This document shows, in pieces, positions 20,384 to 36,719 of a DNA stretch of 38,917 nt. Origin of the DNA: Paludibacteraceae bacterium (GTDB taxonomy: Bacteria > Bacteroidota > Bacteroidia > Bacteroidales > Paludibacteraceae); NCBI GenBank assembly GCA_016282955.1, contig JAEELX010000027.1, forward strand, positions 1 through 38,917, in the 5' to 3' direction. The notes beneath the pieces were generated by a model. That model was not told where the DNA came from. It made no database searches and worked only from the letters and a program-made list of their open reading frames with translations. Numbering within the stretch: the stretch's first letter is position 1; each line of letters opens with the position of its first letter. The translations under genes and the position numbers were made by a program.

Positions 20384-22381
20384 TTATAAGTTCCGCACAA
20401 GACGTACTGCATATCCCATTCTACGGTCAGACGTTTGCGTAAAATTAAGCGTCTTGCTTTTAACATTGCCATCCAGACGATATGCTTTGTTGTTATTGCC
20501 ATTCACTGGAGTCGAAGTCCAATAGTTTATGTAGATACCATAGTTTTTCTCATTTATTCCAGTCGCACCACCGCTTTCTCCACGGTTCGCACAGCCAGGC
20601 AAGAAAGCACAACCCACTTTTTCCAAAGCATCCCAAGTGGTTTTAGAAACCCAATCAACACCATTCGCACCCACAGCAATGGCTTTAACACCTGCTTTTT
20701 CCCACGTGAAATCATCGGGATAAAAGATTATACCCGTAACCGTATCCGTAGGATTACTACTGTATTGTAAGTGAACGAACGAATAGCCAGCCTCTCCATT
20801 GACTTTCCGCGTGTTAACCAGATAATCCCAATCATCCTTCGAAAGCGTACGCCACGTATTCATAGGGTAGCGACCAATCTGATTTCCACCCCATTCGCTC
20901 CACGAATAGTTCGAATTGGTGGTGTTGGTGTAATATGGTTGTCTTGCTCCCGTTAGACCACTCGTTCCCCAGCCAAAGAGGTCTATCCAACCCGCGAAGG
21001 AAGAGGATACTTTACTATTGTCAGCCATACAGCGATGAAACTGTTGAGGTGCAAAACGCCACGTGGCAGGATTTGCCCTATATTGTAAGTTACCTGGCGA
21101 GAATTGCACCTTCTGTGTAGCACTAATTGAGAAGGCAGCAGGCGAAGGATCACGTAAGGTATAATCTTGCACGAGACGCACATTGATAAAATCCATTCGG
21201 TTGGTAGCCTCAACCAATACTGCTTTATTGCGTACATCAAAACGGACATATTCTGCTTTGGCTCCATCCGATGCTGTAGAAGACCAATAGAAGCCCATCT
21301 GACCCAAACCACCGTCGTTGTAATTCAATTGATTTTGTTCATTGGGATAGGATTGATAGGCATTAGGCAAGAACACACAGCCAGCTTCTTCCAAAGCATC
21401 CCATGTGGCACGGTCAATCTCCGAAACAGGATAATTGGCACCAAAAGGCATGGTAGCCACCCCCACCTCCGCAAAACTAAAGTCATCGGGATAAATCAAC
21501 ACACCCGACACCGTATCCGTTGTATTCTTACCATACTTCAACCGCACATACGTAAAAGCACTATCCTTGCCATCAATCACACGTTTGATCAAGATATACT
21601 CCCATTCTTCTATCGTCAATGTACGCCAAATACCTGGCCGATACATCGTAGCATCCTTATCAAAAAGGCTCACCACCTTATTATTTTCATCATACACACA
21701 ATCGTAATACTCGCGAATAGGGTTGCGATAGCCCCAATCAAAATAACGGTTGGTGCCCGAATTGGTATCTATGTCGTTGCTCGTTGCACCCGCACCGCGA
21801 CCTACAACAAACGAAGGACCGTAACCGTAGGCGTTAAATTCACTACCTAAATTCTCACCGCTTAACTCATAAGGATAAAAGAAGAGTGTATTTGCATCGC
21901 CTACTGCTCTACCGTTTCCACTCGTTCCCCACGCAAACATATCAATCCAACCTTTATACGTTTTAGAAATCAATGTGTTATTACAAGGCACGCCTTTAAT
22001 CTCCTTGAAACCCGAGGGCGTGTTATCCTTCGTAGAATAGTCAATACTGTCGTAAAAGACGGTTGTTCCATTGTCATTGACATCGTTACCACTTGTCTGC
22101 AAGCCTTCGGGAGCATACACGCTCTTACCTTTCCCTACACGGTCAAACTGCCGCAAGGCAAAACGCCACTCGTTACGTGCCGGACAGTACTGCAAGTTAC
22201 CCGAAGAGAAAATAACGCTTGCACCACGGTTGTTGATACTGAAAGGATGCACCACAGGCGTATCCACAACGAACTTCACAGCCGACTGATAATGGCGATT
22301 GCAACCATCGGTTTGTGCAGCGTGAACAGCCGTTAAAAATACGCTTAGTCCCAATAATACTAAAAATAAACCTTTTTTCAT
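20384..22381 (-). CDS. Secreted two-domain paralogous protein (P1)
   Basis: 665 aa; signal peptide; two copies of the GNLQY...WRF...GWID.F.WGTSG...WRT...EW.Y...DTVSGVLIYPDDFSF...GCVFLP...YWSST...VRLV domain. Confidence 0.85.
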   Translation of the reverse strand: MKKGLFLVLLGLSVFLTAVHAAQTDGCNRHYQSAVKFVVDTPVVHPFSINNRGASVIFSSGNLQYCPARNEWRFALRQFDRVGKGKSVYAPEGLQTSGNDVNDNGTTVFYDSIDYSTKDNTPSGFKEIKGVPCNNTLISKTYKGWIDMFAWGTSGNGRAVGDANTLFFYPYELSGENLGSEFNAYGYGPSFVVGRGAGATSNDIDTNSGTNRYFDWGYRNPIREYYDCVYDENNKVVSLFDKDATMYRPGIWRTLTIEEWEYILIKRVIDGKDSAFTYVRLKYGKNTTDTVSGVLIYPDDFSFAEVGVATMPFGANYPVSEIDRATWDALEEAGCVFLPNAYQSYPNEQNQLNYNDGGLGQMGFYWSSTASDGAKAEYVRFDVRNKAVLVEATNRMDFINVRLVQDYTLRDPSPAAFSISATQKVQFSPGNLQYRANPATWRFAPQQFHRCMADNSKVSSSFAGWIDLFGWGTSGLTGARQPYYTNTTNSNYSWSEWGGNQIGRYPMNTWRTLSKDDWDYLVNTRKVNGEAGYSFVHLQYSSNPTDTVTGIIFYPDDFTWEKAGVKAIAVGANGVDWVSKTTWDALEKVGCAFLPGCANRGESGGATGINEKNYGIYINYWTSTPVNGNNNKAYRLDGNVKSKTLNFTQTSDRRMGYAVRLVRNL

Positions 22382-22444
22382 ATACTTTACGATGTTAAAA
22401 ATTCAAAAACACGTTTCTCACTCCTTCAATCACCCCATACCTTG

Positions 22445-22475
22445 CAAAGATACAATAAAAATATGTTTTTACAAA
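22445..22475 (-). promoter_or_regulatory. Promoter upstream of P1
   Basis: Minus-strand TATCTTTG (22445-22452), 19-bp spacer, TTTG (22472-22475); the surrounding block is conserved in P2 and P3. Confidence 0.7.
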
Positions 22476-22500
22476 AAAAAATAGAAGGAGGAAAGTGGGA

Positions 22501-22627
22501 AGATGAAAGGTGAAAGGTGAAAGGTGAAAGGTGGAAGATGGAAGATGGAAGATGGAAGGTGAAAGATGAAAAGTGAAAAATGAAATGTAAAAATGAAAGG
22601 TGAAAGATGAAAGATGAAAGATGAAAA
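22501..22627. repeat. Degenerate heptanucleotide tandem array (AGRTGRA)n
   Basis: About 18 heptads read directly (agatgaa aggtgaa aggtgaa aggtgaa aggtgga agatgga agatgga agatgga aggtgaa agatgaa ...), with one register break near 22585. Confidence 0.9.
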
Positions 22628-22710
22628 GGGGAATTGGTGAATTGTACATTGTTAATTGTACATTGTTGTTCCTTTCCCTTTTCAATTCTCAATTTTCAAT
22701 TTTCAATTTA

Positions 22711-22743
22711 AAAAGACAGCCCCTCACCGAGATGAGAAGGCTG
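22711..22743 (-). terminator. Terminator after P2
   Basis: Minus strand CAGCCTTCTCA-TCTCGG-TGAGGGGCTG-TCTTTTT. Confidence 0.8.
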
Positions 22744-22786
22744 ACATATTCCCTAAAACGTACCTGTCAAGCAGGCAAGAACTGAA

Positions 22787-24793
22787 TTATAAGTTTTGAA
22801 TAAGCCTTACAGGGAAGCCGTAATGACGGTAACTATTCGTAAACTCAATGGTCTTACCCGTGATATTGAAGTACACGTTATCCGCCTTTTCGGTACCATT
22901 TTCAGTTGCCGACCAATAGTATACGTATTGGCTATAGAAATCTGGATTGATAGTCGTTCCCATACGGCTTGCACAACCAGGCAAGAACACGCAACCAGCA
23001 TTAGATAAGGCATTCCAAGTCGCTGTTTGCACTACTTGAAGACCTGCCGTAGCACCCACCTGTAAAGGCGTTGTTATACCTGCATCAGCCCACTTAAAGT
23101 TATCAGGATAAATCAGCACACCCGTTGCCGTATCCGCATCAGCGGGTCCGTATTTGAGCGTAACATACGAATAGCCTGCACCGCCATTCACTTGACGTGT
23201 GCTAAGCAAATAAGTCCATTCTTCGCTCGTAGGTGTACGCCATGAACCACCGATCGCAGTGCCCCAATCGCTCCACGAATAATCGGTAGAAGTTGCGGAG
23301 GTAGAATACGGTTTTACATCATCCTCTTTTACACCACTCGCACCCCAGCCAAAGAGGTCAATCCAACCTTCGTAGTTAGCCGCTGCCGAAGCGTTGTTTG
23401 CCATACATCTATCGTATGGATTAGTAGCAAAACGCCAGGTATTCGTAGAGGCTTGATATTGTATGTTGCTCGAAGCAATTTTCACTTTTTGTGTAGCACT
23501 AACCGAGAAAGCAGGAGGCTCACTTACAGTATAATCTTGCACGAGACGCACGGGGTAAGCGAGATAACGTGCGTTATTGTTATTAGTCGCAAGCCCACGT
23601 CCAAGGATATTAAACCATACATTATTTGCTTTTGCTCCATCATACGCACTTGCCGACCAATAGGCACCCCCCAGCCCATTAACATCTGCATTAATACTTG
23701 GTACACCATTGGATAAAGTACGTTGGGTCGCACTCGGCAAGAATACCACGCCTGCTTCTTCCAAAGCCTCAAAAGTAGAAGCGTCAATTGACGAGATAGC
23801 ATAATTTGCTCCAAAAGGAAGCATGGCTACACCTGTCTCTGAAAAACTGAAGTCATCAGGATAAATTAAAATACCCGTAATCGTATCCGAGTTATTCTTG
23901 CCGTACTGCAAACGCACATACGTAAAAGCACTATCCTTACCTTCCACTTCACGCGTGATTAAGATATACGTCCATTCATCAGTGGACAATGTACGCCAGA
24001 TACCCGGACGGTACATCGTACTATCGCCTGCCGACACCAACAAAGCATTATTGCCATCGTACACGCAATCAAAAAATTCACGAATCGTGTTGCGATAACC
24101 CCAATCAAAACAACGGTTGGTACCCGACTTGGAATCAATATCATTGCTTGTTGCACCCGCACCATGACCTTCACCAAACGAAGGACCATAGCCGTATGTG
24201 TTAGGATTAAAGCCTAAGTCGGTATTGTTCAATTCATAGGGATAGAAGAACTGAGTATACTCATCGCCTACGCGTCTGCCGTGACCGCTCGTTGCCCAAG
24301 GGAACAAGTCAATCCAACCAGCATAGTTTTTCGAAACATATAAATTATTACAAGGCACGCCTTTTATCATTTTGAAACCCGTTGGCGAGTTATTGTCTGG
24401 TGTAGAATAATCGATACTGTCGTAGAAGACGGTAGTAACATTATCGTTGACACCGATCGCCGTCAGATTTGCGGGAGCATAAGCACCATAAACACTCTTA
24501 CCATTCCCTACACGGTCAAACTGACGTAAGGCAAAACGCCATTCGCTACGAGCAGGACAGTACTGCAAGTTACCTTTAGAGAAAATGACGCTTGCACCCT
24601 TAGCATTGATACTAAATGGATGCACAACAGGCGTATCCACAATAAATTTGATGGCTGACTCGTAATAACGGTCGCAACCATTCTTAGTATCGGCATTAAC
24701 CGTACCAAACAGTGCGACTAACCCCAATAATAAAGATAAAATTCTTTTCATATTTTTCATAGTATTTTGATAAAATTCAACGTAATTTTTCAC
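22787..24793 (-). CDS. Secreted two-domain paralogous protein (P2)
   Basis: 668 aa; same architecture as P1. An internal start at MKNMKRILSLLL or MKRILSLLL may be the real one. Confidence 0.85.
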   Translation of the reverse strand: MKNYVEFYQNTMKNMKRILSLLLGLVALFGTVNADTKNGCDRYYESAIKFIVDTPVVHPFSINAKGASVIFSKGNLQYCPARSEWRFALRQFDRVGNGKSVYGAYAPANLTAIGVNDNVTTVFYDSIDYSTPDNNSPTGFKMIKGVPCNNLYVSKNYAGWIDLFPWATSGHGRRVGDEYTQFFYPYELNNTDLGFNPNTYGYGPSFGEGHGAGATSNDIDSKSGTNRCFDWGYRNTIREFFDCVYDGNNALLVSAGDSTMYRPGIWRTLSTDEWTYILITREVEGKDSAFTYVRLQYGKNNSDTITGILIYPDDFSFSETGVAMLPFGANYAISSIDASTFEALEEAGVVFLPSATQRTLSNGVPSINADVNGLGGAYWSASAYDGAKANNVWFNILGRGLATNNNNARYLAYPVRLVQDYTVSEPPAFSVSATQKVKIASSNIQYQASTNTWRFATNPYDRCMANNASAAANYEGWIDLFGWGASGVKEDDVKPYSTSATSTDYSWSDWGTAIGGSWRTPTSEEWTYLLSTRQVNGGAGYSYVTLKYGPADADTATGVLIYPDNFKWADAGITTPLQVGATAGLQVVQTATWNALSNAGCVFLPGCASRMGTTINPDFYSQYVYYWSATENGTEKADNVYFNITGKTIEFTNSYRHYGFPVRLIQNL

Positions 24794-24811
24794 AATTCAC
24801 CATAAACTCTG

Positions 24812-24843
24812 CAAAGATAGTATAAAAAAAATGTTTTTACAAA
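24812..24843 (-). promoter_or_regulatory. Promoter upstream of P2
   Basis: Minus-strand TATCTTTG (24812-24819), 20-bp spacer, TTTG (24840-24843). Confidence 0.7.
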
Positions 24844-24930
24844 AAAAATAAAGTGAAAAACAAAAGCCAAGTCCAAACGAATAAATATAGACCAGTCACC
24901 TTTCAATTTTCAGTTTTCAACTTTCAATTT

Positions 24931-24967
24931 AAAAAATTCGTCTCCATCGCAAAAGGACAGAGACGAA
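24931..24967 (-). terminator. Terminator after P3
   Basis: Minus strand CGTCTC...GAGACG-AATTTTTT. Confidence 0.75.
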
Positions 24968-25006
24968 AATCAAACAATAAAGCCTACCAAAGCAGGCAAA
25001 AACATA

Positions 25007-27331
25007 TTATAAATCTCTGACTAATCGAACAGGCAAGCCAGCATGGCGATTGTCGATAGTTACATCGGCAGTTTTATCTACGGTATTGAACGCCATACGA
25101 TACGCCTTATCACTATTACCAGGGTCAGAAGTCCAATAAGATATACCTATACCATAAACAACAGCCGCTTCGTTTTTCATACTCGTACTTCCACCAATAC
25201 GATAACTACATCCTGGTAAGAACGCACAACCCACTTTTTCCAACGCTTGCCACGTAGTTAAACTTATCTTTTGAACGCCCGAAGAAGCCCCCACACTAAG
25301 TGCTTCTACACCCGCTTTTTCCCACGTGAAATCATCGGGATAAATAAGTACACCTGTAACCGTATCCGCTTCCGTTTCACTATCACTTGTTTGTATGCGA
25401 ACGAACGAAAAACCATAGTCACCACCAGCAATCTTACGATTTAACAAATAGTTGCATTCCTCTTTCGTTGGTGTACGCCACGTATTTTTAGGATATGTGC
25501 TGATAACATTCTGTCCCCACTCACTCCACGAGTAATTTGTGGCAGTGGTATTGCTGTAATACGGTTGTCGTGCACTTCCGACTCCACTCGTTCCCCAACC
25601 AAGGAGGTCTATCCAACCATCGTAGTCGTTTGCGATATTCGCGTTGTCTGCCATACAGCGATGATACTGTTGGGGAGCAAAACGCCACGTCTTCGTAGAA
25701 CCTTGATACTGCAAGTTACCTGGAGAGAAGGCTACTTTTTGTGTAGCACTAACCGAGAACGAAGGAGGAGGAGTGGGCGTATGATCTTGCACGAGACGCA
25801 CACTGTTAAAATCCTTTCGGTTGGTAGCCTCAACCAATACTGATTTATTGCGTACATCAAAACGGGCATATTCTGCTTTGGCTCCATCCGATGCTGTAGA
25901 TGACCAATAGAAGCCCATCTGACCCAAACCACCGTCATTCAAATTCATGTGATTATCATTTGCTGCAACGGGATAGGCTTGATAAGCAGTAGGCAAGAAC
26001 ACCACGCCTACCTCTTCCAAAGCACTCCATGTAGCAGCGTCAATCTCTGATACACCATACGTTGCCCCAAACGGAAGCGATGCCACACCAGCCTCCGAAA
26101 AACTAAAGTCATCAGGATAAATCAACACACCTGACACCGTATCCGTTGTATTCTTGCCATACTTCAACCGCACATACGAAAAAGCACTATCTTCACCACC
26201 CACCAATCGCTCCGTTAAGAGATACTTCCATTCGTCAGCCGTCAAGGTACGCCAAACACCCCGACGATACATCGTACCAACGGGTGCTTGCACTACTAAC
26301 GCTTTATTTTCATCATATACTAAATTATAATACTCACGAATCACATTGCGATAGCCCCAATCAAAAAATCGATTGGTACCCGATAGCACATCAATATCAT
26401 TGCTGGTAGCACCAGGACCATGACCTGCATCAAACGAAGGACCATAACCGAACTTATTAGCCTCATGACCTAAATCGACACCATTCAAATCGTATGGATT
26501 AAAGAAGACAGCAAGTGAGTCTTGTGCTTTGCGACCTTGCCCACTCGTTCCCCAAGCAAACATATCAACCCAACCGCCATATTTCTTCGAAATCAATGTG
26601 TTATTGCAAGGCACACCTTTAATTTCTTTGAAACCTGATGCGGTCGAATTATCCTTCGTAGAATAGTCGATACTATCGTAAAAGACGGTCGTTCCATTAT
26701 CGTTGACATTAGTTCCATCTGTCTTCAGACCTTCGGGAGCATAGACGCTCTTGCCTTTCCCTACACGGTCGAATTGTCGCAAGGCAAAACGCCACTCATC
26801 GCGAGCTGGACAGTACTGCAAGTTACCCGTAGAGAACACAACGCTCCCACCTAGTTTATTGATGGTGAAGGGATGCACTGTGGGAGTATCTACAATGAAC
26901 TTCACAGCCGACTGATAATGACGCTCGCAACCAGGTGCACCTGCCGAAGCTTTAGGATGATCAAGCGAACAAGTAATCTTAAAGGAAGTGATCCCCCCCC
27001 CGACACTACCTGAAGTATTTAAAACTGTAAGCGATACGTTTTTGTTTAATACATCCTTTACTAAGGGATATACATTCGCATCAATTAAGACGTTGAATCT
27101 TTTATCATCATCTGTGGAACCCAAATATAAAGTATATACCGTACTTCCTTCCTTAGGTGGTTCTATAATAGCAACTGTACCATAAAACTTATACCCTATA
27201 ACATTTTGGGAACTGTTTAAAAATGTCTTCATCTGAGCATACGTGTACATCGTTCCCGCATCGTTTTGGGCATTGATATGCACGACCAGACCTAACAACA
27301 TGGCTATAAAAAGTAATTTCTTCATATTCAA
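25007..27331 (-). CDS. Secreted paralogous protein with extra N-terminal domain (P3)
   Basis: 774 aa; about 130-aa unique N-terminal part (TYAQMKTFLNSSQNVIGYKFYGTVAIIEPPKEGSTVYTLYLGSTDDDKRFNVLIDANV...) and then the same two-domain body as P1 and P2. Confidence 0.85.
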   Translation of the reverse strand: MNMKKLLFIAMLLGLVVHINAQNDAGTMYTYAQMKTFLNSSQNVIGYKFYGTVAIIEPPKEGSTVYTLYLGSTDDDKRFNVLIDANVYPLVKDVLNKNVSLTVLNTSGSVGGGITSFKITCSLDHPKASAGAPGCERHYQSAVKFIVDTPTVHPFTINKLGGSVVFSTGNLQYCPARDEWRFALRQFDRVGKGKSVYAPEGLKTDGTNVNDNGTTVFYDSIDYSTKDNSTASGFKEIKGVPCNNTLISKKYGGWVDMFAWGTSGQGRKAQDSLAVFFNPYDLNGVDLGHEANKFGYGPSFDAGHGPGATSNDIDVLSGTNRFFDWGYRNVIREYYNLVYDENKALVVQAPVGTMYRRGVWRTLTADEWKYLLTERLVGGEDSAFSYVRLKYGKNTTDTVSGVLIYPDDFSFSEAGVASLPFGATYGVSEIDAATWSALEEVGVVFLPTAYQAYPVAANDNHMNLNDGGLGQMGFYWSSTASDGAKAEYARFDVRNKSVLVEATNRKDFNSVRLVQDHTPTPPPSFSVSATQKVAFSPGNLQYQGSTKTWRFAPQQYHRCMADNANIANDYDGWIDLLGWGTSGVGSARQPYYSNTTATNYSWSEWGQNVISTYPKNTWRTPTKEECNYLLNRKIAGGDYGFSFVRIQTSDSETEADTVTGVLIYPDDFTWEKAGVEALSVGASSGVQKISLTTWQALEKVGCAFLPGCSYRIGGSTSMKNEAAVVYGIGISYWTSDPGNSDKAYRMAFNTVDKTADVTIDNRHAGLPVRLVRDL
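26993..27001 (-). repeat. G9 homopolymer (C9 on + strand) inside the P3 coding sequence
   Basis: gtgatCCCCCCCCCgacac; codons 111-113 (Gly-Gly-Gly) of the 774-aa ORF. Confidence 0.95.
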
Positions 27332-27422: not shown

Positions 27423-27602
27423 AAAATAAATGTAATTTGTTGCAAAAAATCAACCTGTAACGAGGGGGTTATTCGTTGATTCTGTCGCTTTTTCTCCGTG
27501 TTTTGTGCAAAAAAATAGTTTTACTCTTCGATTTTGAAAAGAAATAGTATCTTTGCGGGATAAACGACAACATGAAAAATCAACCTTAAATCAAAATAAA
27601 AA

Positions 27603-29027
27603 ATGAAAAAAATTACTTGTTTTGTGCCGTTTCAGTCTGATGAACAGGTGAAACAGACCACTCAAAACCTACAAAAAGAAGAGTTAGTGGGCGACATCCA
27701 TTACATCCAAGGCGACATCCGTTCGACCAAGAATGTGCGGGAAATAGCGAGCAAAGCCAACACGCCCTACACGCTCATTTATACCAAATACTCCACGTTG
27801 CAGTTCGTTTTGTTTGCCCTCAAACGGATGGTGGATTTGCTGGAAGATGGTGGCTCGGATATGATTTACGGCGACCACTTCAAAAAAGAGGGCGAAAACG
27901 TTACGCAAGCACCCGTGATAGACTACCAGTTTGGCTCCTTGCGTGATGACTTTGACTTCGGAAGCGTGCTCATCTATCGTACATCGGCTCTCAAAGAGGC
28001 TGTGAGTCGGATGAATACGGATTATGAGTTTGCAGGCTTGTATGACTTGCGGCTGAAAGTGAGCCAAAAAGGGCATATCGACCACATCAACGAGTACCTT
28101 TATTACGATGTGGAGCAGGATAATCGGAAGTCGGGCGAGAAGTTCTTTGACTATGTGGACCTTAAGAATCGAGGTGTGCGAATCGAAATGGAGAAGGTGG
28201 TTACCCAACACCTGAAAGATATTGGAGGGTACCTCGAGCCTACCTTTAAGCAGGTGGACCTGAGCGAGGGTAACTTTGAGTACGAGGCAAGCGTGATTAT
28301 TCCGTGCAAGAACCGTGTGCGGACGATTGAAGATGCGATTCGTAGTGCGTTGAGCCAAAAAGTGAACGCACCGTATAAATACAACGTGTTTGTGGTAGAT
28401 GATAATTCGACCGATGGGACGGTGGACAAAATCAAAGCTCTCGTTGCCGAAGGACACGACAACCTGATTTATATTGCCCAAGATAAGACGTGGCACGCTA
28501 TCGGTGGCAACTGGAACGTGGCTTTGCACCACCCCAAATGCGGACGGTTTGCCATACAGTTGGACTCCGATGACACCTATGCGGACGAAACGACTGTGCA
28601 ACAAATCATTGAGGCTTTCCACAAAGAAAACGTGGCGATGGTGGTTGGAACCTACCAGATAACCGACTTTCACGGGAAGGAACTGCCTCCTGGTGTGATT
28701 GACCACAAGGAATGGACGCCCGACAATGGCCGCAATAATGCCTTGCGAATCAACGGATTAGGTGGTCCACGGGCTTTCTACACGCCTTTGATGCGACAAA
28801 TCAATTTCCCGTCCACCAAGTACGGCGAAGATTATGCGATGGGCTTACGCGTGAGCCGAGAGTACCAGATTGGCAGGATATATAATGTGTTGTACCATGC
28901 AAGACGTTGGGAGGATAACTCGGATGCCAACTGTACGTTGGTGGAAATGAATGCCAATAACTTGTACAAAGACCGCATTCGTACGTGGGAATTGAAGGCA
29001 CGCATACAACAAAACAAAAATAAATGA
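27603..29027 (+). CDS. Glycosyltransferase family 2 protein with two GT-A-like halves
   Basis: 474 aa; C-half ASVIIPCKNRVRTIEDAIRSALSQ...NVFVVDDNSTDGTVDKI...IQLDSDDTY is GT2; N-half (PYTLIYTKYSTLQFVLFALKRMVDLLEDGGSDMIYGDHF...) looks like a degenerate second GT. Confidence 0.85.
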   Translation: MKKITCFVPFQSDEQVKQTTQNLQKEELVGDIHYIQGDIRSTKNVREIASKANTPYTLIYTKYSTLQFVLFALKRMVDLLEDGGSDMIYGDHFKKEGENVTQAPVIDYQFGSLRDDFDFGSVLIYRTSALKEAVSRMNTDYEFAGLYDLRLKVSQKGHIDHINEYLYYDVEQDNRKSGEKFFDYVDLKNRGVRIEMEKVVTQHLKDIGGYLEPTFKQVDLSEGNFEYEASVIIPCKNRVRTIEDAIRSALSQKVNAPYKYNVFVVDDNSTDGTVDKIKALVAEGHDNLIYIAQDKTWHAIGGNWNVALHHPKCGRFAIQLDSDDTYADETTVQQIIEAFHKENVAMVVGTYQITDFHGKELPPGVIDHKEWTPDNGRNNALRINGLGGPRAFYTPLMRQINFPSTKYGEDYAMGLRVSREYQIGRIYNVLYHARRWEDNSDANCTLVEMNANNLYKDRIRTWELKARIQQNKNK

Positions 29028-29887
29028 GTTTGAATGCCCAAATAGAAGATATGTTCTCTCGTGAGATGGCTTTGCACGGGAGAGCATATACTTTTTATTC
29101 GCAGTTGGATAAGGTGTTGCACAAGGATATGACCTATAACGGCTTCCCTGCCAAGCTCTTTTTCAACCCGGGGCGTGTGCAGAGTGTTATGGCAGACATC
29201 AGCGAAGAAGCCCTTGCGAAGCGACCTTGCTTCTTGTGTCCGAGTGGGTTGGAGGATAAGCAACTCACCACGCTTTGGACCTCTCCCACTCAACAACAAT
29301 ACTGCATACGAGTGAATCCTTTCCCAATTTTTAAGCGGCATTATACCATCTCGTCTGCGATTCACGAACGGCAGGCTTTTGTGCCACATTTGCATAGTAT
29401 GTTGGCTTTGGCAGAGCAATGGCAGGAGGTTACGCTGTTTTATAATGGACCTTTTTGCGGTGCGAGTGCCCCTGACCACATGCACTTCCAAGCCGTGCCA
29501 CGCCACGCTTTACCCATCGAAAAGCACTTTGATACGGTTTATGTCCCCGCTTATCGCATTGATGAAAAGGACATTACTACCCAGATACAACACGTTACGG
29601 AGTTACTACAAAAAGATACCTCGCCGTTGCAACCCGACGAATGGGAACACAAGTGGAACGTTATCTCGTGGCACGATACAGAGGGTTTTCATACCATCGT
29701 TTTCTTCCGCACCAAAGGGCAACCCGATTGTTTTTTTGAAAAAGACCCCGAAAAATGTATCCATATATCGCCTGCCACAGTGGAAATGGGAGGGATTGGA
29801 ATCGTTGCTGAGCAAAGCAGTTTTGATAAACTAACCCCAAGCCTGCTACACGACATTATGCAGGATTTAGCCAAAAAGATAGATTGA
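29024..29887 (+). CDS. DUF4922-like protein, HIT/GalT-like
   Basis: 287 aa; RPCFLCPSGL, INPFPIFKRHYTI-like (VNPFPIFKRHYTI), APDHMHFQAVPR with an H-x-H-x-Q motif; ATGA overlap with the upstream gene. Confidence 0.8.
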   Translation: MSLNAQIEDMFSREMALHGRAYTFYSQLDKVLHKDMTYNGFPAKLFFNPGRVQSVMADISEEALAKRPCFLCPSGLEDKQLTTLWTSPTQQQYCIRVNPFPIFKRHYTISSAIHERQAFVPHLHSMLALAEQWQEVTLFYNGPFCGASAPDHMHFQAVPRHALPIEKHFDTVYVPAYRIDEKDITTQIQHVTELLQKDTSPLQPDEWEHKWNVISWHDTEGFHTIVFFRTKGQPDCFFEKDPEKCIHISPATVEMGGIGIVAEQSSFDKLTPSLLHDIMQDLAKKID

Positions 29888-32328
29888 TGAAACGGGTTGT
29901 GCTTGTATTATTGGGCTTATGTTGGATGGCTTCGGTGTTTGCATCGTCCAAAGTGCGTATCTTTGGCTATGTGATTGATGAAAATAATCGAGGCATCGAA
30001 TCTGCCAATATAGTGCAAGAACACACAACCAACGGCACCAGCAGTAACCGCAACGGCTATTACGAATTATGGGTTGAAATGACGGATACAGTCGTGGTCG
30101 TGTATAGTTCGGTGGGTTACACCACGATTCGCCAGCAACTCTTCACGCACAACCAAACGCTATGCGTCAATGTCGTCCTCACCAGCACCGAAGAGATGCT
30201 TGACGAGGTTACCATCACGGGCTTTCGGAAACAAAATACGATGATGGACTACCTCGATGCCCAAACTGCCCGTATCATGCCAGACGTCTCGGGTGGTGGG
30301 ATTGAGAGCTTGCTCATTACCTTTGCGGGGGTGACCCAAAGCAACGAGATGAGTGGACAGTACAACGTGCGAGGGGGTAATTTTGACGAAAATAGTATCT
30401 ATGTCAATGGTATCGAAATCCATCGTCCGCTGTTGATACGAGCGGGTCAGCAAGAAGGACTTAGTTTTGTGAACCCTAAAATGGTGGAAAACATCTACTT
30501 TTCGGCAGGTGGCTATGGTGCGAAGTATGGCGACCGCAGTTCGTCTGTCTTGGACATAACTTACAAGCGTCCGAAAGGGTTTGAGGCAAGTATCGATGCG
30601 TCGTTGTTGGGTACGAATGCGTATGTCGGACATGGCAATGACAAGATAACGGGCATGTACGCCTTTCGGTATAAAACCAACCAGTATGTGCTCAAAAGTT
30701 TGCAACAAGTGGGCAATTACGACCCGCGTTTTTTAGATGCTCAAACACAACTTACCTTCCGTTTCAGTCCCAAGTGGGAGTTGCGTTTGCAAGGCTATTA
30801 TAGCCAAAATAAATACCGTTTTTTCCCCGATTCAATGAGCAATAATTTCGGCATTATGAGCAACGTCAAGAACCTGACCGTGTTCTATCAAGGGCATGAA
30901 AGCGATGTGTTTGAGACGGGTTTCGGAGCCATCAGTTTGCTGGGAAAAATCAATTCGGAAGTGTCGTTGGATATGGATTTTAGCGGTTATTATTCCACCG
31001 AACAAGAAAATTATGACATACGTGGCGAATATATTTTGCAAAATGTGATGGGAACGAACGTGTCGGTTGGGCGAGATATGTATGCCGAAACCGTCTTCGA
31101 TAGGCAAGATATTTTGGGAACGGGAATTTACCAAGAACATGCCCGCAACAGCCTCAAAAACAAGGTTTTAACGGCCGCTATCAACAGCCACTGGAAACAT
31201 GCCGACAACGATTTGCACTGGGGAGCAAACATTCAATTCGAACAACTCAAAGACCAAGTAAGCGAGTGGGAATGGCGAGACTCAACGGGTTATTCGGTGC
31301 CACTAAACTCGTCTATGGAGTTGTATTATTGCATGAAAAGTGCCTCGTCGATGCAATCGGTTCGCACGCAAGCCTTCCTGGAAAACACCTCGCAATGGGA
31401 TACAAAACACGGCACGGTCAAGCTCATCGGAGGCGTGCGAATGAACTGGTGGTCGTGGAATAAAGAAGTGTTGGTGAGTCCGCGTGTGAGTGTGATTTGG
31501 TTGCCTGGCTGGAAGCGTGATTTTGCCTTTCGGTTTGCCACGGGTTTGTACCATCAGGCACCTTTTTACAAGGAAGTCCGAGACACCTTCGTCGATGCCA
31601 ACCATATCACCCGCATCAACCTCAACCATACCCTCCGAGCCTCCCGCAACGTGCATTGGGTCGTGGGTGGCGACTACTATTTTCGGATGTTAGCCCGACC
31701 TTTCAAACTGACGGCTGAGCTGTACAGCAAGTATATGGACCGAGGGGTTAGTTACTCGGTGGAAAACGTGCAGGTTCGCTATTCGGGCAAGAATGACATC
31801 GAAGGCTACACGGTGGGGTTGGATTTGAAATTCTATGGCGAGTTGGTGCCCGGGGTGGATAGCTGGATAACCTTTTCGGCGATGCGTTCGCGGGAGCGTT
31901 TTATCAAGGACGAGTACCATTTGGGGTGGATACCCTCTCCGCAAGAGCAACGATACAGCTTTGCGATGCTTTTTCAGGACTACCTCCCCCAACTGCCCCA
32001 ACTGCGGGCTCAGGTTAAATTTATCGTCAATGACGGTCTGCCGTACGGTGCCCCTCGCAGTATGACGACACGCAACAAAGGGCGTATGCCGAATTATAAA
32101 CGGTTTGACTTGGGTTTGATTCATATCTGCGACAAAAAAAGTTATGCCTTTATGAAAAAGAGTAAAGTGGTCAAGATGTGGTCAGTGGGCTTGGATGTGT
32201 TCAATCTGATTGATTTCAAAAACGTCAATTCGTATTTTTGGGTGAGCGATGCTTACGGCAACCAGTGGGCAAGCCCCAATTACCTCTCGGGTAGGCGTTG
32301 GAACTTTAAAGTAAGTGTGGATTTTTAG
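29887..32328 (+). CDS. TonB-dependent receptor with N-terminal carboxypeptidase-regulatory-like domain
   Basis: VRIFGYVIDENNRGIESANIVQEHTTNGTSSNRNGYYEL then plug YNVRGGNFDENSIYVNGIEIHRP...GGYGAKYGDRSSSVLDI and a barrel. The ORF opens at the TTG at 29884; ATG at 29887 preferred. Confidence 0.9.
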   Translation: MKRVVLVLLGLCWMASVFASSKVRIFGYVIDENNRGIESANIVQEHTTNGTSSNRNGYYELWVEMTDTVVVVYSSVGYTTIRQQLFTHNQTLCVNVVLTSTEEMLDEVTITGFRKQNTMMDYLDAQTARIMPDVSGGGIESLLITFAGVTQSNEMSGQYNVRGGNFDENSIYVNGIEIHRPLLIRAGQQEGLSFVNPKMVENIYFSAGGYGAKYGDRSSSVLDITYKRPKGFEASIDASLLGTNAYVGHGNDKITGMYAFRYKTNQYVLKSLQQVGNYDPRFLDAQTQLTFRFSPKWELRLQGYYSQNKYRFFPDSMSNNFGIMSNVKNLTVFYQGHESDVFETGFGAISLLGKINSEVSLDMDFSGYYSTEQENYDIRGEYILQNVMGTNVSVGRDMYAETVFDRQDILGTGIYQEHARNSLKNKVLTAAINSHWKHADNDLHWGANIQFEQLKDQVSEWEWRDSTGYSVPLNSSMELYYCMKSASSMQSVRTQAFLENTSQWDTKHGTVKLIGGVRMNWWSWNKEVLVSPRVSVIWLPGWKRDFAFRFATGLYHQAPFYKEVRDTFVDANHITRINLNHTLRASRNVHWVVGGDYYFRMLARPFKLTAELYSKYMDRGVSYSVENVQVRYSGKNDIEGYTVGLDLKFYGELVPGVDSWITFSAMRSRERFIKDEYHLGWIPSPQEQRYSFAMLFQDYLPQLPQLRAQVKFIVNDGLPYGAPRSMTTRNKGRMPNYKRFDLGLIHICDKKSYAFMKKSKVVKMWSVGLDVFNLIDFKNVNSYFWVSDAYGNQWASPNYLSGRRWNFKVSVDF

Positions 32329-32330
32329 TT

Positions 32331-32885
32331 ATGAAAAAAGAACTTCCGATATTCGTAAAAGATATACTGCTATTTGTGGCCGTTTTGTTGGCTGCCAATA
32401 TCATTTGGAAAGTACTGTTTACGCCATTCTTCTCCGATACACCCCTTGTGATTATCACGGACCAAACGCCCATCTTCAAGTCATGTATTGCCTTGCTGTC
32501 CAACGAAGTGTTTGGGCTCTTGCACCTCTTCAAACCTACCTTAACCTTGCACGAAAATGTCCTATCGTATGGCGGTTTACCGGGTATCCAAATCACGTGG
32601 ACCTGCACCGCCATCAAACAATTTGTGCTGTTTGCATGCATCCTGTTGGCGAGTCGTGGCAACCTAAAACACAAAATATATTACATCCTTTTCAGCATCA
32701 TTCCCATCCACATCACGAATTTTTTACGCATATTTTTCCTCACGCTACTCATCGAAAACCACCGTCAATGCTTCACTTTCTGCCACGAATACCTGTTTAA
32801 GTACATTTTTTACGGCGTATTATTTTTGTTATGGTTGTTTTGGATTGAGAAAAATGAGTATCTTTGCAACGTTTTTAGAAAATAG
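32331..32885 (+). CDS. Exosortase/archaeosortase-family-like membrane protein
   Basis: 184 aa, multi-TM; Cys (ITWTCTAIKQFVLFACILL), Arg (IPIHITNFLRIFFLTLL) and His (FCHEYLFKYIFYGVLFLLWLFW) positioned as in exosortases. Confidence 0.8.
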   Translation: MKKELPIFVKDILLFVAVLLAANIIWKVLFTPFFSDTPLVIITDQTPIFKSCIALLSNEVFGLLHLFKPTLTLHENVLSYGGLPGIQITWTCTAIKQFVLFACILLASRGNLKHKIYYILFSIIPIHITNFLRIFFLTLLIENHRQCFTFCHEYLFKYIFYGVLFLLWLFWIEKNEYLCNVFRK

Positions 32886-32887
32886 TT

Positions 32888-33541
32888 ATGGAAGGTGTTT
32901 TATTTAGTTTGTCTCCTTTTAATGCCACTTGGGTAACAATTTTGCTGATTTTACTCACAATGACACTTGGTTTTTGTTCCTTAGTTTTTCCAAGTATTTT
33001 TACCGTTTCTTTTACTAATTATTTTGGAACCGTTCGCCGTGCATACAGTGTGAATTTGTATAGCAACAATTTTTTAGTAGTCATTTTGAACATCTTTTAT
33101 TACATCGTTTTTTCGTTGGCTTTGTACCTTTTCTTTCGTTGGCATACCGATGTGCAATTTTTGGGTTTTGTTTTTACGTTCGCTTGTGTGTGCATCTATT
33201 CGTTGTTCCGTTTGGGTGTAATTCGTTTTATTCTGTATATTTTTACGGTCAAACCGTCCTTTTCGCTCTATCGTATTCACTATTTTTACCATTGTACTAT
33301 TCTGGCGATTGCGTTGTTTTTGCTGCTTTTTTTCGCCTATTTTTTCTCCGTCAATCATGCTTTGCGAATTTGCTTTTTTGTGTTGCTGGGGATTCATTTT
33401 CTTTCGCTTTTCGTTACGCTATTTCGTTCGCTCCCATTTTCGTTTTTTGCCGTTTTGGGAACGCTTGTTTACCTGTTTACGTTTGAAATGTTGCCCATTT
33501 ATTTCTTGTGGCGATACATTCCAGAGGTGTATTTTATTTGA
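32888..33541 (+). CDS. DUF4271-like integral membrane protein
   Basis: 217 aa, multi-TM; ends LGTLVYLFTFEMLPIYFLWRYIPEVYFI, as I recall for DUF4271. Confidence 0.65.
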   Translation: MEGVLFSLSPFNATWVTILLILLTMTLGFCSLVFPSIFTVSFTNYFGTVRRAYSVNLYSNNFLVVILNIFYYIVFSLALYLFFRWHTDVQFLGFVFTFACVCIYSLFRLGVIRFILYIFTVKPSFSLYRIHYFYHCTILAIALFLLLFFAYFFSVNHALRICFFVLLGIHFLSLFVTLFRSLPFSFFAVLGTLVYLFTFEMLPIYFLWRYIPEVYFI

Positions 33542-33562: not shown

Positions 33563-33820
33563 ATGCCACAAATTAGTTTTTTTTACGGGATATACATTTT
33601 GATGAACTTTTCTGACCATCAACCACCTCATTTTCATGCTTGGTACGGTGATTACAAAGTTATGGTTAATATCAGCGATGGTACGGTCAAAGGAGAAATG
33701 CCAAGTAGGGCTTTAAATATGATTTTAGAATGGCTTGATGAGCATCGTAAAGAATTGATGTCAAATTGGGAAAAAGCACAAAAAGGAGAGCCACTTGATA
33801 AGATTGAACCTCTAAAATAA
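33563..33820 (+). CDS. DUF4160-like protein
   Basis: 85 aa; MPQISFFYGIYILMNFSDHQPPHFHAWYGDYKVMVNISDGTVKGEMPSRALNMILEWLDEHRKELMSNWEKA. Confidence 0.9.
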   Translation: MPQISFFYGIYILMNFSDHQPPHFHAWYGDYKVMVNISDGTVKGEMPSRALNMILEWLDEHRKELMSNWEKAQKGEPLDKIEPLK

Positions 33821-33826
33821 GCAACA

Positions 33827-34087
33827 ATGTTTATAGAAGTTACAAAAGCAGAGTATTTGGAAGGTTATAAAATTAAATTACAATTCAATAATGGCGATAC
33901 TAAAATCGTGGATTTATCGCATTGTTTGAATGGTACAGTTTTTACGCCATTGCAAGATATTGCATTTTTCAAGCGTTTTGCGATTAAATTTAACACAATA
34001 GAATGGGAAAATGGAGCTGATTTTGCACCCGAATACTTGTATCAAATCGGGACAAAGGTAGAAAATCCTGTTCCTCAAAAAAGTTAA
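33827..34087 (+). CDS. DUF2442-like protein
   Basis: 86 aa; VTKAEYLEGYKIKLQFNNGDTKIVDLSHCLNGTVFTPLQDIAFFKRFAIKFNTIEWENGADFAPEYLYQIG; follows the DUF4160 gene by 6 bp. Confidence 0.88.
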   Translation: MFIEVTKAEYLEGYKIKLQFNNGDTKIVDLSHCLNGTVFTPLQDIAFFKRFAIKFNTIEWENGADFAPEYLYQIGTKVENPVPQKS

Positions 34088-34183
34088 TCAAAATTCCATC
34101 TTTAAAAACGTGGTATATTTTTTGCCACAAAGTTCAAAAATACAACTTGGTTGCAAAAAAATTAGCGTATGTTCGTGCGTTTT

Positions 34184-34780
34184 ATGAAGAAGCATAACTT
34201 TTTAATAGTATTGTTTGGACTTTTTACGCTGACACTGTCGGCAGAAGAGGCGAATTTGCAGGGATTACTGAATCGCATCACCCAACAGACCTTTTCGGCA
34301 GATTTTGCTATGGCTATTTCCGAAAAAGTGAACGAACCGATGGTTTATACGGGCAAAATGCAGATAAAAGGCGAAAAATTCACCGTCTTTTTCAATCATT
34401 TGCAAGTCGCTTTTGACGGCAAGACACTCTACTGGTTGGATAAAAAAGCCAACGAACTGACCCTCTCCTACCCCACACCGACGGAATTATACGAAGCCAA
34501 CCCATTCAGTTACGCCCAACAAATGAAAAGTAAGTGCAACGAAACCATCACTGCCGACAAACATGTTACCACTATCACCCTCATTCCAAAAGAAAAAGAG
34601 AGCGATGTGAGTAAATGTATTTTGAAACTCAATCACACGAATTGGTTGTTGCAATCGGTGGAAATCAAAGAACGAAGTGGCAAGACGACTCTGCTCACGT
34701 TTCGCAACACAAAATATAGTTCGGAAAACACTACGTTTAGTATTAACCAAGGCGATGCCTACTTAAATGATTTGAGATAA
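34184..34780 (+). CDS. LolA-like outer membrane lipoprotein carrier protein
   Basis: Signal peptide, then FSADFAMAISEKVNEPMVYTGKMQIKGEKFTVFFNHLQVAFDGKTLYWLDKKANELTLSYPT. The ORF opens at 34169; MKKHNFLIVLFG at 34184 is more likely. Confidence 0.75.
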   Translation: MKKHNFLIVLFGLFTLTLSAEEANLQGLLNRITQQTFSADFAMAISEKVNEPMVYTGKMQIKGEKFTVFFNHLQVAFDGKTLYWLDKKANELTLSYPTPTELYEANPFSYAQQMKSKCNETITADKHVTTITLIPKEKESDVSKCILKLNHTNWLLQSVEIKERSGKTTLLTFRNTKYSSENTTFSINQGDAYLNDLR

Positions 34781-35688
34781 TGGAAAAAGCAAAATGTGTT
34801 ATTATCGGTTCGGGACCTGCGGGTTACACAGCTGCAATATACGTTGCAAGAGCCAATTTGCAACCTGTTTTATATCAAGGTCCTCAGCCCGGTGGACAGT
34901 TGATGATTACACCCACCATTGAAAACTACCCAGGATTTGCAGACGCAATCGACCCGTTTACGCTCCTCAATGCGATGTGCGAACAGGCTAAAAAATACGG
35001 AGCAGACATCCGCGAAGGCATTGTAAAAGAAGTTAAATTTGAGAAAAATAACAATCTTATCACCATTGACGATGGCTCGCAAATCACAGCACAATGTGTC
35101 ATTATCGCCACGGGTGCAAGTGCAAAATTCTTGGGGCTTCCTTCCGAAAAGCAGTTCATGGGCAAAGGCGTTAGTGCGTGTGCTACGTGCGATGGCTTTT
35201 TCTTCCGTGGCAAGACGGTGGCGGTCGTTGGTGGCGGAGACACGGCGTGTGAAGAGGCGTTGTACTTGGCAAATCTTTGTCCAAAAGTGTATATGATTGT
35301 GCGGAAACCGTTTTTGCGTGCCTCACAAATCCTTCAAGACAGAGTGAAAAACAACCCAAACATCACGATTCTCTTCGAGCACGTAACGCAAGAAATTGTC
35401 GGAAACGAGAAAGTGGAAGGCGTTAAACTGCTTTATCAAAACGAGAAAATGGTGGATTTACCCATTGACGGTCTGTTTATCGCCATCGGACACCACCCCA
35501 ATACGCAAATGTTTGGCTCGCAACTGCCGTTAGATGCCGATGGGTATTTTATCAAAGAAAAATTGGACAAAGCCAATGGCATTTTTGTGGCAGGTGATTG
35601 TTCCGAACCACACTACAAACAAGCGGTAATTGCTGCTGGTGAAGGGTGCAAAAGTGCATTAGACGCAATTGAATTTTTAAAACAATGA
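34780..35688 (+). CDS. trxB: Thioredoxin-disulfide reductase
   Basis: 302 aa; GSGPAGYTAAIYVARANL, CATCDGFFFRGK, GGGDTACEEALYL, GIFVAGDC. Confidence 0.96.
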   Translation: MEKAKCVIIGSGPAGYTAAIYVARANLQPVLYQGPQPGGQLMITPTIENYPGFADAIDPFTLLNAMCEQAKKYGADIREGIVKEVKFEKNNNLITIDDGSQITAQCVIIATGASAKFLGLPSEKQFMGKGVSACATCDGFFFRGKTVAVVGGGDTACEEALYLANLCPKVYMIVRKPFLRASQILQDRVKNNPNITILFEHVTQEIVGNEKVEGVKLLYQNEKMVDLPIDGLFIAIGHHPNTQMFGSQLPLDADGYFIKEKLDKANGIFVAGDCSEPHYKQAVIAAGEGCKSALDAIEFLKQ

Positions 35689-35693
35689 TAATC

Positions 35694-36086
35694 ATGAAAA
35701 GAATTTTTTATTTGATGCTCATAGCATTAGTTAGTGGTACCATGAGCATTGGGGCTAAATCCTCAAAAGAGAGTGTTAAATTTTATGTGTATTTACATTG
35801 TGAAGACTGTGTAAATAAAATTATGAAGAACGTGGCTTATGAAAAGGGCGTGAAGGACATCGTGTGCTCCATTGAGAACCAAACGGTAGTCGTTACGTAC
35901 GATGCCAACAAAACCGATGTTGCGACCTTGCAAGCAGCGTTTAAGAAAATCAACAAACCTGCTTCCTTGACGCCTCCTAACAATGTAGCAACACCTCACG
36001 ACCATGACCATCATCACCACGATGGGCATAAACATGAGCACGAACACGAGCATAATCATGGACACGAGCATGCCACTGAATCTTAA
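35694..36086 (+). CDS. Exported heavy-metal-associated (HMA-like) protein with His-rich tail
   Basis: Signal peptide, CEDCVNKIMKNVAYEKGVKDIVCSIENQTVVVTYDANKT (HMA-like with CxxC), tail HDHDHHHHDGHKHEHEHEHNHGHEH. The ORF opens at 35685. Confidence 0.85.
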   Translation: MKRIFYLMLIALVSGTMSIGAKSSKESVKFYVYLHCEDCVNKIMKNVAYEKGVKDIVCSIENQTVVVTYDANKTDVATLQAAFKKINKPASLTPPNNVATPHDHDHHHHDGHKHEHEHEHNHGHEHATES

Positions 36087-36110
36087 TATAACAACTAAAT
36101 TTTATAATCT

Positions 36111-36719
36111 ATGAAAAAAATTTTTGTATTACCCATTAGTCTTATGTTAGCATTTACTTCTTGTTGTCAAAAGAATGCGACTTGTCAAACATCGAACGAA
36201 CAAGCCATCCTTGATGCTATCCAAACCCGCGTAAGCGTGCGTCAATTCACGGGCGAAGAGGTTTCGGAAGAACAAATCCAAACGCTTTTGAAATGTGCTT
36301 TTTCGGCTCCTACGGCTGTAAATAAACAACCTTGGGACATCTTGGTGATTACCGACAAAGAAATCATCAAACAAATCGGCGAAAAATTCCCTAATTCGCG
36401 TTGCCAAAATAACCCGAGCGTTGTTTTCTGCTTGTGTGGCAATATGGAAAAGGCGTTGGAAGGCGAAGCACGTGAGTATTGGATTCAAGACGTTTCGGCT
36501 GCGATGGAAAACTTGCTTCTTGCTGCCCACGGCATGGGCTTAGGTGCTGTGTGGGTTGGCATTCACCCGATTTCGGAACGTGTTCAGGCACATAGAGAAT
36601 TGCTTGGATTGCCTTCTCATGTTGTTCCATTAGGCTTGGCTGTGGTTGGGCATCCAAACGAACAACCCGAAGTGAAAAACAAGTTCAAAGAAGAAAACAT
36701 CCACTACAATAAGTGGTAA
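36111..36719 (+). CDS. Nitroreductase-family protein with N-terminal lipoprotein-like signal
   Basis: 202 aa; MKKIFVLPISLMLAFTSCC then AILDAIQTRVSVRQFTGEEVSEEQIQTLLKCAFSAPTAVNKQPWDILVI...GLGAVWVGIHP. Confidence 0.9.
   Translation: MKKIFVLPISLMLAFTSCCQKNATCQTSNEQAILDAIQTRVSVRQFTGEEVSEEQIQTLLKCAFSAPTAVNKQPWDILVITDKEIIKQIGEKFPNSRCQNNPSVVFCLCGNMEKALEGEAREYWIQDVSAAMENLLLAAHGMGLGAVWVGIHPISERVQAHRELLGLPSHVVPLGLAVVGHPNEQPEVKNKFKEENIHYNKW

Follow-up and report, generated by a model that had tools for sequence, protein, structure and literature searches.

A divergent exosortase, widespread in a Paludibacteraceae genus and outside the named subfamilies, with a testable class of candidate substrates

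Introduction

Does an exosortase gene found in a tight run of five genes in a Paludibacteraceae bacterium act together with the products of its neighbours, or on proteins encoded elsewhere in the genome? The gene lies in a stretch of 38,917 nucleotides (contig JAEELX010000027.1 of GenBank assembly GCA_016282955.1; hereafter the window), which is part of contig C51 of a genome of 1.53 Mb in 137 contigs, and it was compared with Paludibacteraceae and other Bacteroidales metagenome-assembled genomes, many of them from ruminant and horse gut. To our knowledge, almost nothing is known of exosortase substrates and acceptors in Bacteroidota. The window gene was found to encode a divergent, widespread member of the family outside the named subfamilies, with a testable substrate class. 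The explanation which we consider probable is a stand-alone, XrtX-like exosortase which has moved from behind tsaD and processes a few dispersed small secreted proteins; its placement beside genes for a family-2 glycosyltransferase (GT2), a DUF4922 protein, a TonB-dependent receptor and a DUF4271 protein may be positional, perhaps with co-transcription, and reflect no conserved pathway.

Results

Identity of the exosortase

In a hidden Markov model (HMM) search, the 184-amino-acid protein scored 54 bits against TIGR04178, the signature of the superfamily (cut-off 23), which bore out a sequence-only reading of this DNA, made without database searches, that had called it exosortase-like; the XrtF model (TIGR04128), which that reading had also proposed as a check, scored 53.8 bits and fell below its curated cut-off of 90. 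The highest-scoring subfamily was XrtX (NF046081) with 81.3 bits, below the curated cut-off of 170, and the protein was also below the cut-offs for XrtH (34, cut-off 86), XrtY (25, cut-off 160) and the Pfam EpsH model (14 bits, cut-off 25.7). The other exosortases of the genus likewise had XrtX scores of 73-100, below 170. It is well supported by these sequence comparisons that the window protein is a genuine exosortase, divergent and outside the named subfamilies.

The Cys, Arg and His residues to which the same reading had drawn attention are kept almost throughout a set of 52 homologues (Table 1), and in an alignment of 61 sequences C92, R133, F15 and W168 were still invariant. C92, R133 and H152 each lie at or near an end of one of three consecutive hydrophobic segments (90-108, 116-132 and 154-172), and the founding description of the family gives the same order of Cys, Asn-x-x-Arg and His (PMC1569441). 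An AlphaFold2 model of the protein had a predicted local distance difference test score (pLDDT) of 90.5 and a predicted template modelling score (pTM) of 0.83; comparison of the model with PDB structures gave no match, so there is no solved template. By analogy with the family, the protein probably trims and sorts exported proteins.

Candidate substrates in the window genome and the genus

None of the GT2, DUF4922, receptor and DUF4271 proteins has both a signal peptide and a C-terminal tail of motif, helix and basic residues, in agreement with the earlier remark that no obvious PEP-CTERM substrate lay nearby; the receptor was ruled out as a substrate by its C-terminus (...FKVSVDF), a barrel-type strand without a sorting tail. 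A genome-wide search for tail proteins, suggested in the same reading, did yield a candidate. A scan of open reading frames (ORFs) for a signal peptide plus tail, covering about 930 kb (61%) of the window genome (G000), returned one ORF, on contig C28 (12943-13281, minus strand), which encodes a 112-amino-acid protein with the C-terminus EPVSVNGGLFFLLLCVVVYGGLRWRKMSCQ and the tail PVSVNGGLFFLLLCVVVYGGLRWRK. This protein was also the only strong match of the tail profiles in the whole window genome, where many congeners have several, and as a row of the tail profile it owes its own score to construction. We moderately favour it as the best candidate substrate. Its gene is flanked on one side by an elongation-factor-P-like gene and on the other by a repeat-rich gene with an OmpA domain (L191, 10493-12883, minus strand), the product of which has 796 amino acids and a long AKEQAAKEKAKEQ repeat region.

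The PID_CTERM model (NF046080) returned nothing at E<=0.01 in the window genome and nothing over its cut-off across 51 genus genomes, where two sub-threshold matches were seen. One (L083) was dropped as it lies in a transporter-type protein, while the other (L082, in genome G008) led to the tail family: it is a 161-amino-acid secreted protein with the tail VLPIGEGLWLLVLAAMAYSVYTLRRLRK, and its gene immediately follows one whose product bears a type IX secretion tail. At L082 (1459-3028) and L116 (1-1873), small tail genes lie about 5-20 bp from genes for large secreted proteins, one of which carries a type IX secretion tail, and this closeness suggests paired expression.

With a profile of three tails from the genus (A2), matches at E<=0.005 were obtained in 46 of the 59 other genomes of the genus, often several per genome and for the most part in ORFs of 100-230 amino acids. 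The same profile gave two matches, both in large ORFs, among 42 genomes of other lineages that have no exosortase. This contrast is confounded by kinship, as A2 was itself built from genus sequences. Most of the congener tail proteins were identified from profile coordinates and ORF length instead of from their sequences.

Co-distribution of tails and exosortases in Bacteroidales

Profiles of 16 exosortases (A1) and of seven tails (A3) were searched against 129 Bacteroidales genomes, at least 90% complete and mostly one per family; A3 also draws on other families, through PID-CTERM-like genes that in most cases adjoin an exosortase gene. There were A1 matches in 52 and A3 matches (E<=1e-4) in 35 of the 129 genomes, and an exosortase was present in 32 of 35 tail-bearing compared with 20 of 94 tail-free genomes (Fisher P about 2e-13; P = 6e-12 after removal of the four genomes that supplied A3 tails). 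A tail gene lay within 1 kb of an exosortase gene in at least nine genomes (G058, G062, G095, G114, G119, G132, G134, G145 and G180). This distribution links tails of the PID-CTERM type to exosortases of this kind broadly, and does not in itself establish the link for the clade of the window protein. The nearest non-genus relatives of the window clade (G067, G071, G078, G150 and G184) had no A3 tail at E<=0.01, G078 giving a tail at 8e-4 with the genus profile; because these relatives are without strong tails, we infer the identity of the substrate with moderate confidence.

Three further observations were made on these genomes. Several tail matches in the exosortase-positive G155, on several contigs, fall in ORFs of about 560-750 amino acids, not in small ones; these may encode large surface proteins that share this signal. 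Strong tail matches were found in G127 and G133 and no exosortase by A1, for which either a missed exosortase or assembly gaps would account. At L071 (1636-2736, minus strand), a 366-amino-acid exosortase-like protein, double the usual length, adjoins a small gene with a PLDGGL tail.

Ancestry and rate of change

A posterior mean site frequency (PMSF) tree of 52 exosortases placed the window protein with the genus, on its deepest branch (93/76; one clade in 92% of bootstraps). Its branch length is 3.96, whereas end branches have a median of 0.52, and its exact position is unsure with branches of this length. Mean identity of the exosortase was 31.5% between the window genome and its congeners and 53.7% (standard deviation (sd) 4.9) among congeners, while the corresponding values for TsaD were 68.6% and 78.1% (sd 3.4). 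Three otherwise conserved residues have changed in the window protein (W117Y, P120L and G122S, consensus to window). There is moderate support for an orthologue that was inherited vertically and has a very long branch, and the fast change fits either altered specificity or weakening constraint. Horizontal gain of the exosortase together with the receptor locus is unsupported, as the tree puts the exosortase in the genus (moderate support, long branch).

Gene neighbourhood in congeners

The exosortase gene was present in 45 of 49 genus genomes. In 35 of 41 congener loci fetched it immediately followed tsaD in the same orientation, with a gap of at most 60 bp in 34 loci (negative gaps depend on the start chosen). 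The window genome has its tsaD on contig C62, where the next genes are a glycogen-synthase-like gene and uvrB and no exosortase gene is present; the exosortase gene has therefore moved.

The sequence-only reading had supposed a conserved Bacteroidales neighbourhood in which the exosortase is coupled to the receptor and sugar-nucleotide-type enzymes, and this was contradicted: the five-gene order is not kept in about 50 congeners, in which the exosortase follows tsaD and the receptor and GT2 genes are elsewhere, and that reading had itself named such a lack of conservation as refuting it. GT2 and receptor genes were each found in 47 of 51 genus genomes, away from the exosortase save for few exceptions. 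These were G042, in which the GT2 gene is 17 bp behind the exosortase gene on the same strand (an adjacency in one of about 44 genomes, near chance), G009, with the receptor gene about 7 kb away, and a few congeners with the genes on a shared contig at larger distance. The DUF4922 gene was present in 9 of 51 genus genomes. In six of the eight others that have it (G010, G011, G014, G025, G028 and G039) it adjoins the GT2 gene on the same strand, and in the remaining two the matches are on separate contigs; as the GT2-DUF4922 pair recurs in congeners, it is the sole conserved coupling in the region. Relatives of the DUF4271 gene were weak and scattered, elsewhere in 12 of 50 congeners. The five-gene arrangement is thus particular to the window genome and arose by local rearrangement.

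The gene run and its surroundings

All five ORFs and four junctions described in the sequence-only reading were present at the positions given there (Table 1). HMM searches assigned the first product to Glycos_transf_2 (86 bits, cut-off 23.3), with chondroitin synthase as its nearest solved relative (E 1.5e-7), the second to DUF4922 (153 bits, cut-off 23.6), the third to CarbopepD_reg_2 and TonB Plug domains, and the last to DUF4271 (PF14093; 37.3 bits, above the Pfam gathering cut-off of 29.7). The start of the receptor gene is the ATG at 29887, not the TTG favoured by the ORF lister. The GT2 and DUF4922 genes overlap by ATGA (29024-29027) and the DUF4922 and receptor genes meet in TGATG (29885-29889); the receptor stop (32326-32328) is 2 nt from the exosortase start at 32331 (TAG-TT-ATG), and the exosortase and DUF4271 genes are separated in the same manner (2 nt, TAG-TT-ATG). 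This spacing allows a single transcript.

Table 1. Positions of the genes, codons and promoter-like elements of the run within the window
Feature	Position	Strand	Remark
TATCTTTG, possible promoter of the gene run	27548..27555	+	matches Bacteroidota -7 element TAnnTTTG
GT2, 474 aa	27603..29027	+	catalytic domain about 228-364
DUF4922 protein, Ap4A-phosphorylase-like, 287 aa	29024..29887	+	HxHxQ-type sequence DHMHFQ
TonB-dependent receptor, 813 aa	29887..32328	+	N-terminal carboxypeptidase-regulatory-like domain
Exosortase/archaeosortase family protein, divergent XrtX-like, 184 aa	32331..32885	+	
Codon of Cys92, putative nucleophile	32604..32606	+	kept in 52/52 homologues
Codon of Arg133, NxxR motif (N130-F-L-R)	32727..32729	+	kept in 52/52 homologues
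Codon of His152	32784..32786	+	kept in 51/52 homologues
Second TATCTTTG	32859..32866	+	21 nt 5' of DUF4271 start codon; consensus match only
DUF4271 family multi-pass membrane protein, 217 aa	32888..33541	+	about 7 hydrophobic segments

The first TATCTTTG element is in the sole sizeable intergenic gap, 47 nt 5' of the first start codon, and the second may be a separate promoter for the DUF4271 gene, as judged by consensus match. Boxes of the -7 type are not rare in the region, where 10 were seen against 3 expected from mononucleotide shuffles, and are weak evidence alone; matches to sigma-70-type promoters and to terminators were at chance level there.

Upstream of the run, three large paralogous ORFs of secreted type lie in a row on the minus strand (20384-27331) and end just before it, the last of them with a FISUMP/Fib_succ_major-type domain. 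Behind the DUF4271 gene, two small genes (33563-34087) resemble the DhiT/DhiA toxin-antitoxin pair (DUF4160 and DUF2442); their third-position G+C contents of 0.30 and 0.25 are lower than those of their neighbours, and the pair is possibly a recent insertion. Further on, a LolA1-like chaperone, a thioredoxin reductase, a small protein of secreted type that has a long tail rich in His (HDHDHHHHDGHKHEHEHEHNHGHEH) and a nitroreductase-like protein are encoded in one run (34169-36719).

Discussion

A stand-alone exosortase processing dispersed small proteins would work as follows. A small protein would be exported by Sec and held in the inner membrane via a C-terminal segment made up of a Pro/Gly motif, a hydrophobic helix and a basic end; Cys92, aided by Arg133 and His152, would cut before the helix at the periplasmic face with a thioester intermediate, and the protein would be released, or passed to an acceptor, en route to the surface. 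The sequences show the family, the conserved residues, the gene order, the relocation and the co-distribution of tails; we infer the cleavage mechanism and the acceptor transfer by analogy. The envelope-maturation role proposed in the sequence-only reading can thus be retained for the exosortase by itself and not for the cluster, the neighbourhood of which is not conserved.

Several results count against this explanation. The long branch could reflect decay instead of a change in specificity, the tail of the C28 protein is not recovered by the PID_CTERM model, tail proteins at L096 and L116 have no visible signal peptide, and the order-level link is carried mostly by another exosortase clade, which pairs with PID-CTERM, with the nearest non-genus relatives giving no A3 tail at E<=0.01.

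There is a fair case, which we hold tentatively, for a broader account, in which a tsaD-linked, XrtX-like Paludibacteraceae clade has its own C-terminal signal, made up of a motif of roughly P-[IV]-G-[DE]-x-L, a helix in which a Tyr is conserved and then a basic end. Families of small secreted proteins would carry this signal, some of them encoded beside type IX secretion cargo genes, and the window copy of the enzyme would be relocated, fast-changing and left with essentially one matching substrate. If true, there would be two surface-sorting routes in one cell; with 10 type IX secretion tails in the window genome, the route through the exosortase would exist alongside type IX secretion.

It is rather unlikely that the enzyme is active on another class of substrate, such as larger surface proteins with a different C-terminal motif, and that the likeness of the tails to PID-CTERM is incidental. 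The nearest non-genus relatives without strong tails and the genus tail proteins without a signal peptide would fit such an enzyme, but the high frequency of A2 tails in congeners compared with exosortase-free genomes, and the order-level association of tails and exosortases, argue otherwise. We also judge it unlikely that the exosortase is decaying, with little or no function, after most of its substrates were lost from a small genome, its place behind the receptor gene being neutral. The extreme branch length, the fall in exosortase identity while TsaD is modestly divergent, the changed conserved residues and the one strong tail match would be expected of decay, but the reading frame is open, the three putative catalytic residues are intact, the predicted fold is confident and a secreted protein with a matching tail remains. 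Very improbable is a single operon for surface glycan or protein attachment or maturation, in which the exosortase would attach a linker produced by the sugar enzymes, with the receptor as substrate or partner: the genes are tight and partly overlapping with no terminator-like site at the junctions, and G042 offers one adjacency, but that adjacency is near chance, receptor, GT2 and exosortase genes are apart in the other congeners, the exosortase pairs with tsaD, the DUF4922 gene is far rarer than the exosortase gene, and neither the receptor nor any other neighbour carries a sorting tail.

Viewed as a proposed operon, the finding is unremarkable, since the gene order is specific to the window genome. 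The near-universal presence of the exosortase in a genus of gut bacteria, together with a searchable tail, makes the question of its substrates testable. A search of a library of papers found nothing on PID-CTERM or exosortase XrtX, and DUF4922 and DUF4271 in incidental mentions only.

Among known systems, EpsH/PEP-CTERM is alike in having substrates with a signal peptide, motif, helix and basic end (PMC1569441); however, at least eight helices are present in EpsH proteins, most of which are encoded in exopolysaccharide loci, whereas the window protein is short and outside such a locus. A PEP-CTERM/exopolysaccharide locus was rejected here, the Pfam EpsH score being below cut-off and no such genes lying nearby. 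XrtF of Flavobacterium johnsoniae is also a Bacteroidota exosortase without a known PEP-CTERM partner; its deletion reduced surface colonisation and biofilm and abolished zorbs, and its substrates were left by the authors to future work (PMC10936215). The window protein falls short of the XrtF cut-off, and none of the genes here resembles that for Fjoh_1449, the dedicated neighbour protein of XrtF. XrtX/PID-CTERM differs in that the window protein scores well under the XrtX cut-off, forms part of a separate tree clade and has no adjoining substrate gene, and in the tails themselves, which are SVNGGL, PIGEGL and PVGDAL here compared with PIDGGL of PID-CTERM. It is nevertheless the best-scoring subfamily for the window protein and its congeners, with the same Cys, Arg and His residues, and in the order PID-CTERM genes adjoin those of related exosortases (L072 and L075).
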